A stretch of DNA of 34,700 nt. Source: Helicobacteraceae bacterium (GTDB lineage Bacteria > Campylobacterota > Campylobacteria > Campylobacterales > Sulfurimonadaceae). The stretch is taken from NCBI GenBank assembly GCA_027068615.1, contig JAMOQV010000073.1:1-34700 (forward strand). The letters run 5' to 3'. A program made the position numbers and the translations under genes. Positions 44 through 27,422 of the stretch are shown in pieces (the stretch's first letter is position 1; each line of letters begins with the position of its first letter). The notes under the pieces were generated by a model. It made no database searches. It saw only the letters and a list, made by a program, of their open reading frames with translations, and was not told the origin of the DNA.

Positions 44-67
44 AAAAAGCTTTAGAAAAAGCTTTTT
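44..67 (-). terminator. Hairpin at the 3' end of the AsmA-like gene
   Basis: AAAAAGCTTT-AGAA-AAAGCTTTTT, perfect 10-bp stem overlapping the stop codon. Confidence 0.55.
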
Positions 68-2088
68 AGTATATTTCCAACATCTCCACCTAGTTTATCG
101 CCAAATTTTTTCTCTATCTCTTTTGCTATAGCTTTTTTTGCTTTTGCTTTTACAAGCTCGCTAGCATCTACTTTTACTTTTGGTTTTGTGGTATCTCCTG
201 ATAACTTAACTATAATCTCATTGCCATTAGCATCTATGTTTATAGTAGATTTTATCTGGTTTGTTTTTGTATTTAGTTTTGTATTTTGTGTTTTTATAGA
301 TGATGTTCTACTTTGTAAATCTAAAGAAGCAATTATATGTTCTTTGTTTATATCTGCTTTTACATCACCTTTAAAACCTTCTCTATACATATTGATTTTA
401 GCATACTCTTTTGCTAGATCAAATGCTATATTTTGAGTAAATTTACCATTGTTTAATTTACCATTCATATGACCTTTATTTTTAGCTAAATCATAATTAA
501 CTTTTGCATCTAATGAAGCTGAAAAAATTTCAGGATATATAAGTTTATGTAAAAGCTCTATAGTTTTAATATCTTTTAAGTCTATGTTTATATTGTCATT
601 ATGTAGTTTTGCTTCAAGTTTACCACCAACAATATCACTATATGCAATAAAATCCAAATCTTTTGCTTTTTTTAGTTCCCCATCTATCTTTATACCACCT
701 AGTATATGTTTTTCAGTTACAAAAAACAGTTTTTCAAGTTTAGCAATATTTAGAGAATAATCACTTTTTAAAGATATGTCATCTAGGTTGAAGTGTGCTT
801 TTTTTACATATAAATCAGCTAAAGTTGAGTTAAATGTGATTTTTGAATTTATCATATTTTTATCTAGTTTAGTTGATATTTTTGCTTTGAAAAGTGTTTT
901 TGGCATCTTATGTTTAAACTTATACTCTTTAGTTATAAACTTGGTATCAACTTTACCTTGTTTTATATTTGTTAGTATATTTCCAGCTAGTTGTCCCATT
1001 TTTGCATCTGATATATCTATATTTACATCAACCAAAGCATCTGCATAATGGGGTTGTTTTACCATATATAAAAGTTTTTGTACTTTTAAGTTTTGTATTT
1101 TTGCTGTTATACTTTTTGATTGAAACTCTTTTAAAATAGTTTTAAATGATGTTTTTGATGAAGCTATGTCTGTATATCCTAAGATAACCATATTTTCTTT
1201 TGTACCTTTAACTGTACCATTTAGTTTTAATGCACCACGGATATCTGCACTAGTTATAGGTTTAAGAACTGCTAACTCTTTTACATCAAGATTATATTTT
1301 ATATCTGTTTGTAATGGTTGAGGTATAACTCTACCTAAAGAGTTGAAATTTGCAAGGTTTGATTTTAGTTTGTACTTATAATCTATATTTTTACCTGATA
1401 ATTTTGCATAAAGATTCATGGCAAAAGCTGTTTTTGGTATAGTTATATTGAAGTCATCTTTCATCACTTGTGTATTTAATCTACCATCTTTAGTTATAAC
1501 TTTTATATCTCCATCCAATTTATTTGGGTCTATATTTTTAAAGTTTATATCTACATTTAATTTAGCTTGAGCATACTTTTTTTGTCCACTTATATATAGT
1601 AGTTGTGCTAAATCTGCTTTTTTTACTTTAGCTATGATTGAGGTTGGATTAAAATCAGTTAGTTCTATATGATAAGATGTATTACTAGAAGCTACATTAC
1701 TAATACCATCAACTGTTATAAATTTAGTATCTCCATTTATACGACCAGTTGTATGAAAAACACCCCTTATATCTTTAGAATTTGTAAGTGGTTGTAGATT
1801 TTCTAGTTTATCTAGTCTAAGTTTATAAGCAACATTAAACTTTTTACTAAATATAGAGTAATTACCACTTATATATATAGTATTTCTACTATCTAAATCT
1901 AGTATGATGTTAAAATTATCACTGCTTAATGAAAATTCACTTAATTTAGCATCTAGTTTTGTTACTTTTTGTAACTCATTTTCTACTATTGGTTTTACCA
2001 ATGAATTACCAAACCCTGTAAAGGCTAAAACATATATACTTATAACCAAAGTGAGTATTAACCCACTTATCCACCCTAAAAACTTCAT
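52..2088 (-). CDS. AsmA/TamB-like inner-membrane-anchored repeat protein (DUF748/AsmA-like)
   Basis: 678-aa ORF with an N-terminal TM anchor (MKFLGWISGLILTLVISIYVLAFTGFG), beta-rich repetitive body and amphipathic C-terminus; RBS AGGAG just upstream of the ATG. Confidence 0.7.
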   Translation of the reverse strand: MKFLGWISGLILTLVISIYVLAFTGFGNSLVKPIVENELQKVTKLDAKLSEFSLSSDNFNIILDLDSRNTIYISGNYSIFSKKFNVAYKLRLDKLENLQPLTNSKDIRGVFHTTGRINGDTKFITVDGISNVASSNTSYHIELTDFNPTSIIAKVKKADLAQLLYISGQKKYAQAKLNVDINFKNIDPNKLDGDIKVITKDGRLNTQVMKDDFNITIPKTAFAMNLYAKLSGKNIDYKYKLKSNLANFNSLGRVIPQPLQTDIKYNLDVKELAVLKPITSADIRGALKLNGTVKGTKENMVILGYTDIASSKTSFKTILKEFQSKSITAKIQNLKVQKLLYMVKQPHYADALVDVNIDISDAKMGQLAGNILTNIKQGKVDTKFITKEYKFKHKMPKTLFKAKISTKLDKNMINSKITFNSTLADLYVKKAHFNLDDISLKSDYSLNIAKLEKLFFVTEKHILGGIKIDGELKKAKDLDFIAYSDIVGGKLEAKLHNDNINIDLKDIKTIELLHKLIYPEIFSASLDAKVNYDLAKNKGHMNGKLNNGKFTQNIAFDLAKEYAKINMYREGFKGDVKADINKEHIIASLDLQSRTSSIKTQNTKLNTKTNQIKSTINIDANGNEIIVKLSGDTTKPKVKVDASELVKAKAKKAIAKEIEKKFGDKLGGDVGNILKSFF

Positions 2089-5020: not shown

Positions 5021-5560
5021 TTACTTAGTTAGATTTGTATCAACCATATTTGAATAAACTTTCATTGTGAAAGATGAACTGATAAGGTCATCTTCTTTTT
5101 TAAATCTTATTGGAAAATTTACACTTATAATCCATTCTGTTTTATTTATAGCATCTAAAAAATTATAAAAAGTTTTAGGAGAGTTTATTTTTGATGTAGC
5201 TTTTACAGAATAAACACTAAATCCATCTTGCTCACCCTCTTTAGGTTCTTTTAAAATTTCTAGTTCAGAAAAATAACCATCGTGCAATTTTTTAAATCTT
5301 TTTGGATCAAAACTGTTTGCAAAAGCTGATATAATGTTTTTGTTTTCACTTCTTAGTGATTTTAATGTTGTTTTTGTCTTATCGTTGTATTTTTGTTCCT
5401 CTTTTAACTCTTTTTCTTCCTTTTTTATCTGTACTCTTTCTTTTCTATACTGCTTTCCGTGTGGAATAAGAACAAAAAAAGAAAAAATAAGAACAAACAA
5501 CAGAAGCAGAAAAGATAATATTAAAAGATATAAATTCTGTCTTGAAATTTCCATTTTCAT
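5021..5560 (-). CDS. PilO-like bitopic membrane protein
   Basis: N-terminal TM, coiled coil, small C-terminal alpha/beta domain; third gene of a PilM/N/O-like triplet. Confidence 0.5.
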   Translation of the reverse strand: MKMEISRQNLYLLILSFLLLLFVLIFSFFVLIPHGKQYRKERVQIKKEEKELKEEQKYNDKTKTTLKSLRSENKNIISAFANSFDPKRFKKLHDGYFSELEILKEPKEGEQDGFSVYSVKATSKINSPKTFYNFLDAINKTEWIISVNFPIRFKKEDDLISSSFTMKVYSNMVDTNLTK

Positions 5561-5562
5561 AA

Positions 5563-6093
5563 TTAATCATCCTCTTTTAGAGTTGTTTCATCTTCATCTA
5601 TATAGTTTTTTGATACGAAGTATAACCAACCATTTTCTGCAGGATAAAAACTACTATAAGTATTGTGAAATATAGATCTTAGAGGTGCTTGAAGCATAAA
5701 GTTATATACATCTTTATTTGGAGTTATTCCATAAAGTATAAGTCCATTTTCTAGTAGTTTTGCTTCTGATAGTGTTATTCTTTCTGGAACTAAATCAAAC
5801 ATATTTGCTATAGAATCTTTTAACACTGTATTTTGTGTAAAAATCTTTTTTGATACAGAGATTTGTTTTTCTATAAATTTTATATCCTCATTCATTTTAT
5901 GTAAACTAATATTCAAATCACGTTTTGTATTTTGTATCTCTAGATGTTCCTGTTTGAAAGAGTAACTTTTAAAAACTAGAAACATATAAGTTAGTAAAAG
6001 CATAATTATAGTTATAAAGAAAAATATAAAAAGTAGTTTTAATTCACTTGTAACAAAGCTCTTTTTTCTTGGTTTTATATAACTATATGTCAT
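5563..6093 (-). CDS. PilN-like bitopic membrane protein
   Basis: N-terminal TM, coiled coil, then MFDLVPERITLSEAKLLENGLILYGITPNKDVYNFMLQ, a PilN-like pattern. Confidence 0.55.
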   Translation of the reverse strand: MTYSYIKPRKKSFVTSELKLLFIFFFITIIMLLLTYMFLVFKSYSFKQEHLEIQNTKRDLNISLHKMNEDIKFIEKQISVSKKIFTQNTVLKDSIANMFDLVPERITLSEAKLLENGLILYGITPNKDVYNFMLQAPLRSIFHNTYSSFYPAENGWLYFVSKNYIDEDETTLKEDD

Positions 6094-7121
6094 TTTAACT
6101 CCGATTGTGCTAGTTCAGATATCTCTACACCTAGATTTATTTGTCTTACATATACATTTAAAAACATCTCTTCTTCTAGGTAGTTTTTCAAATCACCATT
6201 TATACCTATGCTATCTGCGATATATATATTTTCTACAAATTTACTGTTGTATTTTTCATCTTCATAAAATGTTTTTATTGAAGCTTGTATTAGGCTAAAC
6301 ATCTGAAAATCTTCATCAAATAATTCCCCACTTTCAGACATTGTATTTTTATGAGATGATTGATTTAGAGATGTGCTTTCCTCTTCTAAATCCTCTTCGA
6401 TATCAGTAAATTCATCTATCTCTTCTATAGAATCTAAATCTTCAATATCTCCAAAAACATCTAAATCATCATCAATATCTATACTATCTAAATCAATACT
6501 ATCTTCAGATACATCTTCTAAAGTTATCTCATCAGAATCATCTGAGTCTATACTAAATTCATCTGTTGTTTCAAATTCATCTTTTAGACATATGTATTGT
6601 GCATACAATAATTCTGAAGTATCAAATATGCTAAGTGATATAGAATCTTTTTGTATCAATACAAATATAGCTAAATGTGATTCTATCTTATCTTTAAAAA
6701 AATTAGCAAGAATTATAAATGGTGAAAAAACAAAGTCTAGACCAAGGTCACTAAAATCATTTTCTATCTCATCTAAGTCAAATTTAGATGTATAATATGA
6801 CCATTTGTTATTGTAGCAACCATATTTACATAATGCTTTATCGTAGAATTTACTTATCTCGATATGTTCACATGTTGGTGCTGCACCTTGAGATGTTGAA
6901 GAGTCTAAAAACGATATATAAAAGTAAGGTGTATCTTTTGTGAAAAAGTTTATATACTTTTTCATCTCATCGTTTATAGTATCGGTATCAAATACTTTTT
7001 CTTCAGATTCAACTAAACCTTTTGTGTTTTTTCTTTCTATATATACAATAAGCTCTTTATCTCCTGCATGTATATTTATAAATATAGTATGATATAAAAA
7101 TTTACCTATTTTTTCTAACAT
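6090..7121 (-). CDS. PilM/GspL-like protein with an Asp/Glu-rich insertion
   Basis: Position upstream of PilN/PilO-like genes with a 4-bp overlap. Supplied start (7139) is a TTG; ATG 7121 with upstream GGAG preferred. Confidence 0.4.
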   Translation of the reverse strand: MLEKIGKFLYHTIFINIHAGDKELIVYIERKNTKGLVESEEKVFDTDTINDEMKKYINFFTKDTPYFYISFLDSSTSQGAAPTCEHIEISKFYDKALCKYGCYNNKWSYYTSKFDLDEIENDFSDLGLDFVFSPFIILANFFKDKIESHLAIFVLIQKDSISLSIFDTSELLYAQYICLKDEFETTDEFSIDSDDSDEITLEDVSEDSIDLDSIDIDDDLDVFGDIEDLDSIEEIDEFTDIEEDLEEESTSLNQSSHKNTMSESGELFDEDFQMFSLIQASIKTFYEDEKYNSKFVENIYIADSIGINGDLKNYLEEEMFLNVYVRQINLGVEISELAQSELK

Positions 7122-7123
7122 TT

Positions 7124-7957
7124 TTATTTTACTCCACAAAGTGGATGTGCTTTATTATAGTTTTGTTGTTTCAATGCACTACCTAATTTTGTATATATTT
7201 GTGTTGTTGCCATTGATGAATGACCCAACAGTTCACTAACATCAGCAATAGGAGCAGATTCATTTAATAATGAAGTTGCATAAGAGTGTCTAAGCTGATG
7301 AGGTGTAACTTTTATACCTATACGTTTAAATACTTTAGTTACTTTGTATCTTAAGATATTTTCGCTTAATTTTTCATCATTCTTTTCAAAAAGGTATTTT
7401 TTTACATTGTGAGTGGATAAATATTCATCCAATAACTTTTTTGTTGATTCTATAAGTGGTATATCCCTTTGTTTATTACCTTTTCCTATAACTCTAATCC
7501 ATTCGTTTGATATATCTTCAATTTTTAAATTTAACAGTTCTGAAATCCTTAGCCCAAGAGTATAAAATAAAATTACAATAAGTCTTTCATCACTATCTGC
7601 ATACTTTAATGCTTCTATAATATTTTTATGAGATATTGGTTTTGGTAATGTTTTTGCTACTTTTATAGTATCATCAGCTTTTAAAATATTTTTAAAACCA
7701 TTATCATTTAGATAACTACAAAACCCTCTAATGGCACTTAGTTTTTTACTTATAGTTTTTGGATTTAGATTTTTGATTTTTAATCGATAGGGCATAATAT
7801 TAAAGATATTTATCCCTTTATCTTCATATATCTCAATCTCTGTTAAAGCCTCTATTAAAGTTTCATTATAACTCTTTAGTGTCAAATCAGAGTAACCTCT
7901 AACATCTTTTAGATAGTCTAGGAATTCTATCCGTTTTTTATTTAGTAACTTTTTCAA
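7124..7957 (-). CDS. Tyrosine recombinase, XerC/XerD-like
   Basis: Catalytic signatures LGLRISELLNLKIEDI, HQLRHSYATSLL, LLGHSSMATTQIYTKL. Confidence 0.93.
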   Translation of the reverse strand: MKKLLNKKRIEFLDYLKDVRGYSDLTLKSYNETLIEALTEIEIYEDKGINIFNIMPYRLKIKNLNPKTISKKLSAIRGFCSYLNDNGFKNILKADDTIKVAKTLPKPISHKNIIEALKYADSDERLIVILFYTLGLRISELLNLKIEDISNEWIRVIGKGNKQRDIPLIESTKKLLDEYLSTHNVKKYLFEKNDEKLSENILRYKVTKVFKRIGIKVTPHQLRHSYATSLLNESAPIADVSELLGHSSMATTQIYTKLGSALKQQNYNKAHPLCGVK

Positions 7958-8393
7958 AAAGACCCTTAAATTGTTTATTGTATAATGTAGCTTTATCTAT
8001 AAGTTTTTTATCAGTTATTACACTTGGAGACAATTTTTTATATGTACCTATCATAATTTCACATATAGTTTTTATCTTTGCTTTATCTGCTGTTGTTATA
8101 AAATCATGTGTTGCTATCTCATTTATAGTTTTCATGTATTTATTTGCCATATCTATATAATCTACATATTTTAGTGATACTTTTGATTGTGCCATTATTG
8201 TTGAAGCCATACGGTTATATATATCTAGTTCAAAAGCTTCTTTTGCTAGTTTGTAAGCTTCTTTATAATCACTTGTTTCATAGTAATACTTGGCTTCTAA
8301 GGAGAGTTTATAAGATGGATTTGCTAAAAAAAATAGGCTCATAACTATTAGAAGTATTCCAGCAATAGATGGAAACATTATTTTATAACTCAT
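7938..8393 (-). CDS. Membrane-anchored TPR-like conserved hypothetical protein
   Basis: N-terminal TM; helical repeats (YYYETSDYKEAYKLAKEAFELDIYNRMASTIMAQSK); overlaps both neighbours. Confidence 0.6.
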   Translation of the reverse strand: MSYKIMFPSIAGILLIVMSLFFLANPSYKLSLEAKYYYETSDYKEAYKLAKEAFELDIYNRMASTIMAQSKVSLKYVDYIDMANKYMKTINEIATHDFITTADKAKIKTICEIMIGTYKKLSPSVITDKKLIDKATLYNKQFKGLFEKVTK

Positions 8394-9015
8394 TTTTTAA
8401 CAATCCATTTTTTATAGTATCTTTAGCATCTTCTAAACTCATATCAGATACATCGATAAAATCACTTATATAGTAGTGAATTTCACCAAATGGTTTGGGT
8501 ATGATAAACTTATCCCAAGATGGTATCTGCCAATATAAAGTTGGTTTTATCTCAACCAATACAATTCTTACTTTTGCTTTTTGAGCCATAACAACGATGC
8601 CATCGTGAACTATATGTCTAGGGCCTTTTGGACCATCAGGAGTGATGCCCAAATCATAGCCATCTTTTAAAGATTTTATAGATTCTATAAGAGCTTTTAC
8701 CCCTCCACGAGTGCTTGAGCCTCTTATTGTCTCAAAACCAAACTTGTTTAGCGTTTTTGTGATAAGATTTCCATCAAAATGTTCAGATATAACAAGTTTT
8801 ACTTTTGGAGTTTTTTTGTAGTGGGTATAAGCATAAGGTATCATCAAAAGCTCACCATGCCAACAAGCCATGATAAAGTTTTCATCCCCTAGAGTATCTG
8901 GAGCATGAAAAACTTTTTTATTTGTTAGATATAAAAGTCGAATAAGCAGTGAGCCTAAAGATGGCACTATGATTAAAGCTAAAAACCGTGAAGTTTTTTT
9001 TAAAAGCTTTTTCAA
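8383..9015 (-). CDS. Lysophospholipid acyltransferase-family protein (DUF374)
   Basis: FIMACWHGELLMIPYAY, IRGSSTRGGVKAL, LGITPDGPKGPRH. Confidence 0.85.
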   Translation of the reverse strand: MKKLLKKTSRFLALIIVPSLGSLLIRLLYLTNKKVFHAPDTLGDENFIMACWHGELLMIPYAYTHYKKTPKVKLVISEHFDGNLITKTLNKFGFETIRGSSTRGGVKALIESIKSLKDGYDLGITPDGPKGPRHIVHDGIVVMAQKAKVRIVLVEIKPTLYWQIPSWDKFIIPKPFGEIHYYISDFIDVSDMSLEDAKDTIKNGLLKNEL

Positions 9016-9019
9016 CTCT

Positions 9020-10321
9020 TTACTCTACAATCTCACCAGTTAAGATAGTTCTACCTATAGCTGTTATCTTAACATCTCTAAATTGACCTAAAAGCTCATC
9101 TGAGCCTTTTACTTTTACTACAAAGTTGTTATCAGTTCTACCACTTACATACATATCTTGGTTTAAATCTTCAAAGTAAACTTTGTAAATTTTTCCCATT
9201 TGAGATGCATTTATCTCATCTAGTATCTCAGTATGAAGGCTTTGAAGAGTAGTTAGTCTTTGTGAAGCTACATCAGCATCTACTACATTTGTATAGTGTT
9301 GAGCTTCTGTTTCTGGGCGAGGGGAGTATTTAAAAGAGAAGATTTGTTCAAACCTTACTTTTCTCATCACATCCAAAGTTTCTTCAAAATCCTCATCACT
9401 TTCCCCTGGAAATGCAACAATTATATCTGTAGATATACTAACCTCTGGACACATTGATTTTAGTTTTTCAACACGATTTAAGAACCACTCTTTTGAGTAA
9501 CCTCTTTTCATATCTCTTAAAACTTTACTTGAGCCACTTTGAAGTGGCATATGCATAGATTTACATATCTTAGGGTTGTTTGCAAACTCTTCTATAAACT
9601 CATCATCCATATGAAAAGGGTGAGGTGATGTAAAACGGATACGCTCAAGATTATCTATCTTACTTAACTCTCTTAAAAGATAAGTAAAGTTTACTTTTTT
9701 ATGGTCATCATTTGAAAATCTTCTTCCGTAGTTATTTACATTTTGACCAAGTAAAAATATCTCTTTTGCACCATTATCTACACTTCTTTGAGCTTCATTT
9801 ACTATAAGATTTAGTGGGATTGATACCTCTTCCCCACGAGTTTTTGGAACGATGCAGTAAGTACAAGATTTATCGCATCCCATAGAGATATTTATGTAAG
9901 CTTTAAAAGGTGATGATCGAAAATCTTTAAAAGCAAATTCACTCTCATCATAGTTTATATCTATCTCAACAGCTTTATCTTTATGTAAAACTTCACTTAT
10001 CTTAGATACATTTCTAGCACCTAGTACAAAGTTTACATAAGGAGCTCTTTTGATTATCTCTTTTCCAAGATGTGATGCAGTACAACCACAAACACCTATC
10101 TTTGCATCTTCTTTTTTCTTTTTGTTAAAAACACCCAACTCTGAGAAAAGTTTAGATACTGGTTTTTCCCTAACTGAGCAGGTATTTATCAAGATAAGGT
10201 CGGCTTCTTCAAGTTTTGTAGTAGTCTCATAATCATCTTTTTCACGAAGTTCAGCTATCATATGTTCGCTGTCTCGTGAGTTCATAGCACAACCTAGTGT
10301 CTCGATAAATAACTTTTTCAT
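9020..10321 (-). CDS. miaB: tRNA-2-methylthio-N6-dimethylallyladenosine synthase MiaB
   Basis: [14 protein letters not shown]-terminus, radical-SAM [20 protein letters not shown] domain at the C-terminus. Confidence 0.95.
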
Positions 10322-10334
10322 TTTATATTTCTTT

Positions 10335-10580
10335 TTAGTTCATTATATGTACTTGGTACATATACTCGTTGTCTGAAAGACCGAATTTTACTTCACTCAT
10401 ATAAAAACTTTTACCTTTTGCTTCAAAATAGTCTTGAAGTTCTAGTAAATCTTTGTGAGAATTTTCTCTATCAAAGTAAAATATAACACTATCTTCTTTC
10501 TCAACACTAGCTTCTATCTTAGAAAGCTCTGCTTTTTTAGGCTTTTTATCAATATCTGTTCTTGCAAATAATAATTCCAT
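10335..10580 (-). CDS. HP0268-family small protein (Smr-like nuclease family in H. pylori)
   Basis: 81 aa; [34 protein letters not shown] resembles HP0268; position between miaB and nusA is conserved in Campylobacterota. Confidence 0.8.
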
Positions 10581-12663: not shown

Positions 12664-12749
12664 ATTTTCTCTTTTTTCTTTATTTGTAGTAATTTTATGA
12701 TATTATAGTGTCAAAAAATTAATTTTACCAATTAATAATGGAGATATTT

Positions 12750-13427
12750 ATGACTCAAGATGAACTTGATGCTTTGATGGGTGGTGATGTAGATACTATC
12801 GATGAAGAGATGGCTGAAGTTGAAGAAAAAGAGGATAAAAAAGAACCTGTAGAAGATAAAAAAATTATAGAAAACCATGTACAGGAGGGTCAATTGCCAT
12901 TTCCAGCAACAAATGAAAACAAGATGGTACATCAACTAGATGATGTAACAAGAGAGAGCGAAGAGAAAGCTGGTGAGATTTTTGATATTATTGAAAATAT
13001 TTCTAACGAGCTTATGGAAAAAGAGGATAATCTTAATACTATTTTAGAGATTGTTGAATCAAATATTACACTTTTTACAACTTTAAGTACTAAATTTCCA
13101 GAGGTTGAAGCTTTTAAAACTCAACTAGAAAAAAATGAGACAGCAAAAGAGGAAGTAAATACTGTTTTAGAGATGTTGCAAAATAGTGGTGATGATATAA
13201 TGAATGTTATGGATATAATGCAATTTCAAGATATTCATCGTCAAAAGATAGAGAGAGTTATAAATGCTATGAGAGCATTGTCTAAATATATGTCAACACT
13301 ATTTGAAGGTCAGATTGATGATGATAAAAGGGTTGCTTCAGCTCAACACTTACACGGTGATGACAATGATGACTTGGCTTCTGAAGATGAGATGGAAGCA
13401 TTACTAGCTCAGTTTGCGAAAAAATAG
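12750..13427 (+). CDS. cheZ: CheZ-like chemotaxis phosphatase
   Basis: MDIMQFQDIHRQKIERVINAM (CheZ-type helix with QD motif); gene order cheZ-U32-purE as in Campylobacter. Supplied start 12738 lies in the RBS region; ATG 12750 preferred. Confidence 0.82.
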   Translation: MTQDELDALMGGDVDTIDEEMAEVEEKEDKKEPVEDKKIIENHVQEGQLPFPATNENKMVHQLDDVTRESEEKAGEIFDIIENISNELMEKEDNLNTILEIVESNITLFTTLSTKFPEVEAFKTQLEKNETAKEEVNTVLEMLQNSGDDIMNVMDIMQFQDIHRQKIERVINAMRALSKYMSTLFEGQIDDDKRVASAQHLHGDDNDDLASEDEMEALLAQFAKK

Positions 13428-26864: not shown

Positions 26865-27422
26865 TTATGCCTCTACATTTAGTACAGAAAAACCTTGTTC
26901 TGCCATATATTTATCTACTGTTTCTAATGCTTTTTTCATAGTCTCTTGAGATATCTCTGGTAACTCTGAACCCCAAGCTTCTTTTGCATCTTCATAACCT
27001 TTAAGCATACCTTCTCTACCTGCTTTAAGCATATCTTCATCACCATTTGCTCCATTTATAACAAAATCAGATATTCTTTTAGCTGTTTGATCAACTCCAA
27101 AGAATCCATTATCACTAACTAACTCTTTTGCTTCATCTTGAGAAAGTTCAGCTATTGGCTTACCATCATAACCTATATCTTTTAAAAAGTTTTGAAACTC
27201 TTCATAATCTTGCTGAAACTTATCTTTATCTTCACCAATAATGATAGATAAATCAGATTGTAAAGATATAGATTGAAGTAAAACCTCTTTAGATTGTTCC
27301 TCCATCTGATTTTTTATATCTTTTACTTCATCTGCTGATATTTTATCTGTAAAATTACTTTTTATCTCTTTTTTTGTGTTTACATTTGTATTCATACTAA
27401 TTATATTTGATGAAATTTCCAT
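26865..27422 (-). CDS. Conserved hypothetical protein (DUF5610-like; often named 'hydrogenase-4 component G')
   Basis: C-terminal GREGMLKGYEDAKEAWGSELPEISQETMKKALETVDKYM; AAGGAG RBS. Confidence 0.5.
   Translation of the reverse strand: MEISSNIISMNTNVNTKKEIKSNFTDKISADEVKDIKNQMEEQSKEVLLQSISLQSDLSIIIGEDKDKFQQDYEEFQNFLKDIGYDGKPIAELSQDEAKELVSDNGFFGVDQTAKRISDFVINGANGDEDMLKAGREGMLKGYEDAKEAWGSELPEISQETMKKALETVDKYMAEQGFSVLNVEA

Follow-up and report, generated by a model that had tools for sequence, protein, structure and literature searches.

Three consecutive minus-strand genes in a Campylobacterota genome, lying within the 34,700-nt stretch of DNA analysed here (the window), are in all probability orthologous to fcpM, fcpN and fcpO, which encode the flagellar cage proteins of Campylobacterota. 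The triplet resembles the platform genes of type IV pili because it descends from them, and in its distribution it co-occurs with flagellar genes, not with secretins. An earlier, sequence-only reading of the locus had recognized a PilM/PilN/PilO-type triplet on the minus strand, 2 nt after a tyrosine recombinase gene, which open reading frames and orthologs confirm. It had also proposed an under-described system; this view is not supported, the family being already known from the literature (PMC11870540) as FcpMNO, the flagellar cage. Family, role, gene context, link with miaB and fused forms are all on record, and the window provides one more ortholog.

Gene layout and protein folds

The source assembly is fragmented (1.75 Mb in 273 contigs, 89% complete). 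Past a divergent nusA, the minus strand carries a block opening with an HP0268 family protein gene (10335-10580; PF18618, 8.2e-33), followed by miaB (9020-10321), the conserved gene upstream of the fcpMNO operon, recognized by sequence and phylum-wide synteny. Two conserved neighbours come next, encoding a DUF374 protein (8383-9015; PF04028, 8.4e-29, and synteny) and a small TPR-like membrane protein (7938-8393; open reading frame and synteny). The XerC/XerD-like tyrosine recombinase gene (7124-7957) precedes the open reading frames of fcpM (6090-7121), fcpN (5563-6093) and fcpO (5021-5560). The recombinase matches Pfam Phage_integrase at 2.9e-32 and the NCBIfam XerC model at 1.3e-57, yet under the cut-off of that model; it belongs to the same putative operon and stands outside the cage module. 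Gaps of 2 nt separate the recombinase gene from fcpM and fcpN from fcpO, and fcpM and fcpN overlap by 4 nt. These two-base gaps and the four-base overlap suggest that the triplet and its upstream genes are carried on a single transcript. No open reading frame for PilP, PilQ, an assembly ATPase or a pilin was seen within the window, in agreement with the earlier reading, whose proposal of an inner-membrane module devoid of its own secretin is thus borne out.

Several other open reading frames of the window deserve mention. A second motility gene of the window appears to lie at 12738-13427 (plus strand): it looks like an epsilon-type CheZ whose start reads TQDELDALMGG. After it come a U32 peptidase gene and purE, in an order which we take to be that of C. 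jejuni Cj0700-Cj0702. A 185-aa protein (26865-27422, minus strand) has a polar N-terminus recalling the Campylobacterota proteins misnamed 'hydrogenase-4 component G'. The AsmA-like protein encoded at 52-2088 (minus strand), 678 aa long and equipped with an N-terminal membrane helix, gave no Pfam or NCBIfam match that passed the cut-off.

FcpM (343 aa from its ATG, a TTG at 7139 being a possible alternative start) is predicted by its structural model to be a cytoplasmic actin-like protein with the PilM fold, the two parts of which are connected by a linker spanning residues 184-267 (window 6335-6572). This linker is highly acidic and disordered, 36 of its 84 residues being D or E and a single one K or R. 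The AlphaFold2 model has a mean pLDDT of 67, with values of 70-90 over most of the folded part and disorder in the linker. It matches Pseudomonas aeruginosa PilM (5eou, 5eq6) and the PilM of a type IV pilus machine (3jc8, Myxococcus pilus model) with E-values around 1e-7, as well as FtsA and further actin-like ATPases. A PilM_2 profile search of the organism's own genome retrieved FtsA and not FcpM. Flagellated species with an unfused FcpM share the acidic linker; fused forms seem to lack it or to have a shorter one.

FcpN (176 aa) carries YSxIKPRxK in a short cytoplasmic N-terminus, followed by a transmembrane helix, a long helix and a ferredoxin-like periplasmic domain, while FcpO (179 aa) displays an N-terminal transmembrane helix, a coiled coil and a small periplasmic domain; in both, the coiled coil and the small C-terminal domain lie behind the N-terminal helix. 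The one transmembrane segment per protein expected from the sequence-only reading is found at the N-terminus of FcpN and FcpO and is missing from FcpM, the best 19-residue Kyte-Doolittle mean of the latter reaching 1.38 versus 2.76 and 3.21 for the other two. The FcpN AlphaFold2 model follows the topology helix, two strands, helix, two strands. Foldseek aligned it over the whole target length with GspL periplasmic domains (TMt 0.61-0.63, probability 0.97-0.99) at an E-value of only about 0.1, which is below usual significance. H-NOX domains occupied the top ranks for the same model (E 0.03-0.06) with low TM-scores and were rejected as spurious, whereas the GspL domains are covered entirely. 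The fold check proposed with the earlier reading supports a PilM structure for FcpM and suggests a GspL-like domain for FcpN.

Direct searches of the window's own three copies against PDB, Pfam and NCBIfam yielded chance or coiled-coil matches only, and the Pfam PilN family (PF05137) was matched by 4 of 30 FcpN orthologs (best 3.3e-5). Profile comparisons went further: FcpN aligned with the type IV PilMN of Campylobacterota at E 4e-6, FcpO with the PilO of Campylobacterota type IV loci at E=4e-5 (hhalign, probability 70), and FcpM with type IV PilMN weakly, at E 0.0016 (probability 16). We consider the PilM/PilN/PilO assignment good for FcpM and FcpN and moderate for FcpO.

Orthologs and distribution in Campylobacterota

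All three genes have orthologs at the C. jejuni locus L068 (tblastn: FcpM, 24.7% identity, 7.7e-14; FcpN, 33.5%, 1.1e-22; FcpO, 29%, 5e-10), where the order HP0268-miaB-DUF374-FcpM-FcpN-FcpO is the same and neither the TPR nor the Xer gene is present. The order HP0268-miaB-DUF374-(TPR-Xer)-M-N-O is maintained across the phylum and, with orthologs so arranged, the triplet is far from a chance assembly. The co-conservation anticipated by the sequence-only reading is thereby established, FcpN being found in 134 of the 150 Campylobacterota genomes of our sample, one of which (G102) encodes an FcpN 99% identical to that of C. jejuni. The TPR and Xer genes occur in the window's own family and in some others, and are absent in Campylobacter and Helicobacter; at the loci of family f2, such as L039, the triplet is placed after DUF374. 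The operon stands on its own, with miaB upstream and no pilus genes beside it; in C. jejuni 81-176, fcpMNO was likewise described as an operon with a conserved upstream miaB (PMC11870540).

Gene fusions account for part of the variation. Family f8 encodes a fused FcpMN, the counterpart of which has been published for Nitratiruptor (PMC11870540). Seven genomes that carry the flagellar export gene flhA and gave no FcpN match all belong to one family; the four that were examined encode, after DUF374 at the miaB locus, a fused FcpMNO protein of 524-571 aa matching FcpM in all four cases and FcpO in two. A fused FcpMNO has already been reported in Arcobacter (PMC11870540).

The 150 genomes were scored for two markers only, flhA, which 140 of them possess and 10 lack, and a secretin, present in 131. 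FcpN was found in 133 of the 140 genomes with flhA versus none of the 10 without it (Fisher p ~1e-11, ignoring shared ancestry), after one match of 52 residues within a 409-aa frame (genome G058) had been scored as chance and dropped. Secretins show no such association: FcpN occurs in 116 of 131 secretin-positive and 18 of 19 secretin-negative genomes (p 0.69, again ignoring shared ancestry), and is lacking in all nine genomes that possess a secretin and no flhA. FcpN has been lost at least three times, in family f4, in genus g19 and in genome G086; genome G148, devoid of flhA, secretin, FcpN and also miaB, was left out as an independent co-loss. This distribution following flagella and not secretins constitutes an independent check, on a genome set larger than the published one.

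The flagellar cage and competing explanations

In C. jejuni, 34 FcpMNO and PflD units surround 17 stators, the cage proteins pull each other down, and the triple deletion abolishes the cage and leaves stators in approximately 10% of motors (PMC11870540, preprint). The H. pylori homologs, designated PilM, PilN and PilO, build a cage that surrounds MotAB, and early biofilm formation is reduced when PilO is lost (PMC11237671). By analogy, the cage in the motor of the present organism would be the same as in C. jejuni. FcpN and FcpO would each insert one helix in the inner membrane, their coiled coils and small periplasmic domains holding the two together, and FcpM would bind FcpN at its cytoplasmic N-terminus, in the way PilM binds PilN. 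Together with PflD, which resembles a PilP/PilQ stub, these FcpMNO units would build an outer cage enclosing the stators and keeping them engaged, with high torque as the expected outcome.

The window's own genome carries flhA (contig C170) and a PflD homolog located directly 3' of rpsA (C161:12781-13095, 9e-6), a placement with respect to rpsA that is shared with C. jejuni. The C. jejuni query, presumably PflD, was chosen for its length, its N-terminal helix and its location, with rpsA on one side and serA on the other, as we take to be the case for Cj0892c.

The likeness to C. jejuni FcpMNO thus extends to the homology of all three proteins, the order after miaB, the separation from pilus genes, the co-occurrence with flagella and the PflD partner encoded in the genome. 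The differences are the TPR-like and Xer genes inserted here between DUF374 and fcpM, and an identity of 25-34%, which is low for FcpM (25%) and FcpO (29%). The H. pylori proteins (HPG27_252 being PilO; cited in PMC11237671) belong to the same family by position and fold and likewise form their cage around MotAB; they differ by the lack of an adjacent Xer gene, and their mutants are affected in early biofilm formation. With the type IVa PilM/PilN/PilO of P. aeruginosa and M. xanthus the triplet shares the actin-like PilM fold of FcpM and the PilN-type motif, and with GspL/GspM the GspL-like periplasmic domain of FcpN. It departs from both systems in that its cluster lacks pilP, pilQ, ATPase and pilin genes, its distribution tracks flagella, and the same genome has separate PilMN/PilO and GspL/GspM genes. 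The combination of pilP/pilQ or gspC/gspD with an ATPase and pilins that marks a type IV or type II platform was not found in the triplet's cluster.

These comparisons bear on two further explanations of the locus. The sequence-only reading considered a displaced part of a DNA-uptake or pseudopilus machine. The triplet would then be the inner-membrane platform of such a machine, or of a type IV pilus, the remainder of which is encoded elsewhere; the PilM/N/O-like folds and the presence of secretins elsewhere in this genome speak for it. The genome search that had been suggested for remote secretin machinery did find two such systems, each with its own platform. One is a complete MSHA/type IV-like cluster (C144; L058:6220-14057) encoding a fused PilMN, PilO, PilP, PilQ, an ExeA-like ATPase, a TPR protein and PilB. 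The other (C166; L059:2097-10907) is a type II secretion-like cluster with GspK, L, M, N-like, C, D and E and pseudopilins. Since both machines own their platform genes, neither needs the triplet, which is moreover kept in genomes deprived of secretins and missing from genomes with secretins and no flhA, and we regard the platform explanation as very improbable. As to the type II-like cluster itself, it is broken by a phosphofructokinase-like gene and adjoins a long secreted protein. A partnership with the neighbouring Xer recombinase, in which the triplet would for instance anchor chromosome-dimer resolution to the membrane or form a mobile module, seems more improbable still. A joint function would fit the two-base gap and common strand, and in most relatives from the window's own family, as well as in some others, triplet and recombinase gene lie side by side. 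Against it, miaB and Xer occur without the triplet in four flagella-less genomes (L092, L093, L097 and L101), the triplet occurs without Xer in C. jejuni, other Campylobacter and Helicobacter, and the phylum-wide syntenic position is at odds with a mobile module. Because each occurs without the other, a functional link is unsupported; the association is incidental, and the caution of the earlier reading, which had called it merely suggestive, was well placed.

A lone FcpM in a genus without flagella

The cage assignment leaves room for an additional, flagellum-independent role of FcpM, a prospect which we hold possible and on balance rather unlikely. It is raised by genus g19, where flhA is present in none of the 14 genomes (L105-L118) and all 14 carry an FcpM-like gene that is intact, encodes 243-260 aa and has neither FcpN nor FcpO beside it. 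This gene has stayed at the ancestral position, flanked by DUF374 and a tilS-like gene (for example L105:1501-2259, plus strand). Its dN/dS is about 0.09 and 0.19 in close pairs (that is, ~0.09-0.2) and 0.21 in a more distant pair, low values indicating that it is under selection. Opposed to a second role are the shortening of the g19 protein and its lack of the acidic linker, features of what could be a re-purposed derivative, and the lack of any sign of such a role where the cage is still present. The g19 FcpM may be a re-used remnant or the sign of a second FcpM role. That FcpM can persist without a flagellum, and may have, or have gained, a second cell partner, is a tentative proposal to which we give somewhat less than an even chance; conceivable partners include a protein of the cell pole or of division and the PilN-type component of the type IV machine. 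The lone g19 FcpM is apparently unreported; it was not found in PMC11237671 or in PMC11870540, the supplementary tables of the latter aside.

As cage genes, the triplet clearly exemplifies how parts of a pilus were recruited into the flagellar motor. The lone FcpM opens the way to asking what function the actin-like subunit serves when its membrane partners are gone. Where PilMNO-like genes of Campylobacterota come without a secretin, they should be interpreted as belonging to the flagellar cage and not as orphan secretion platforms.
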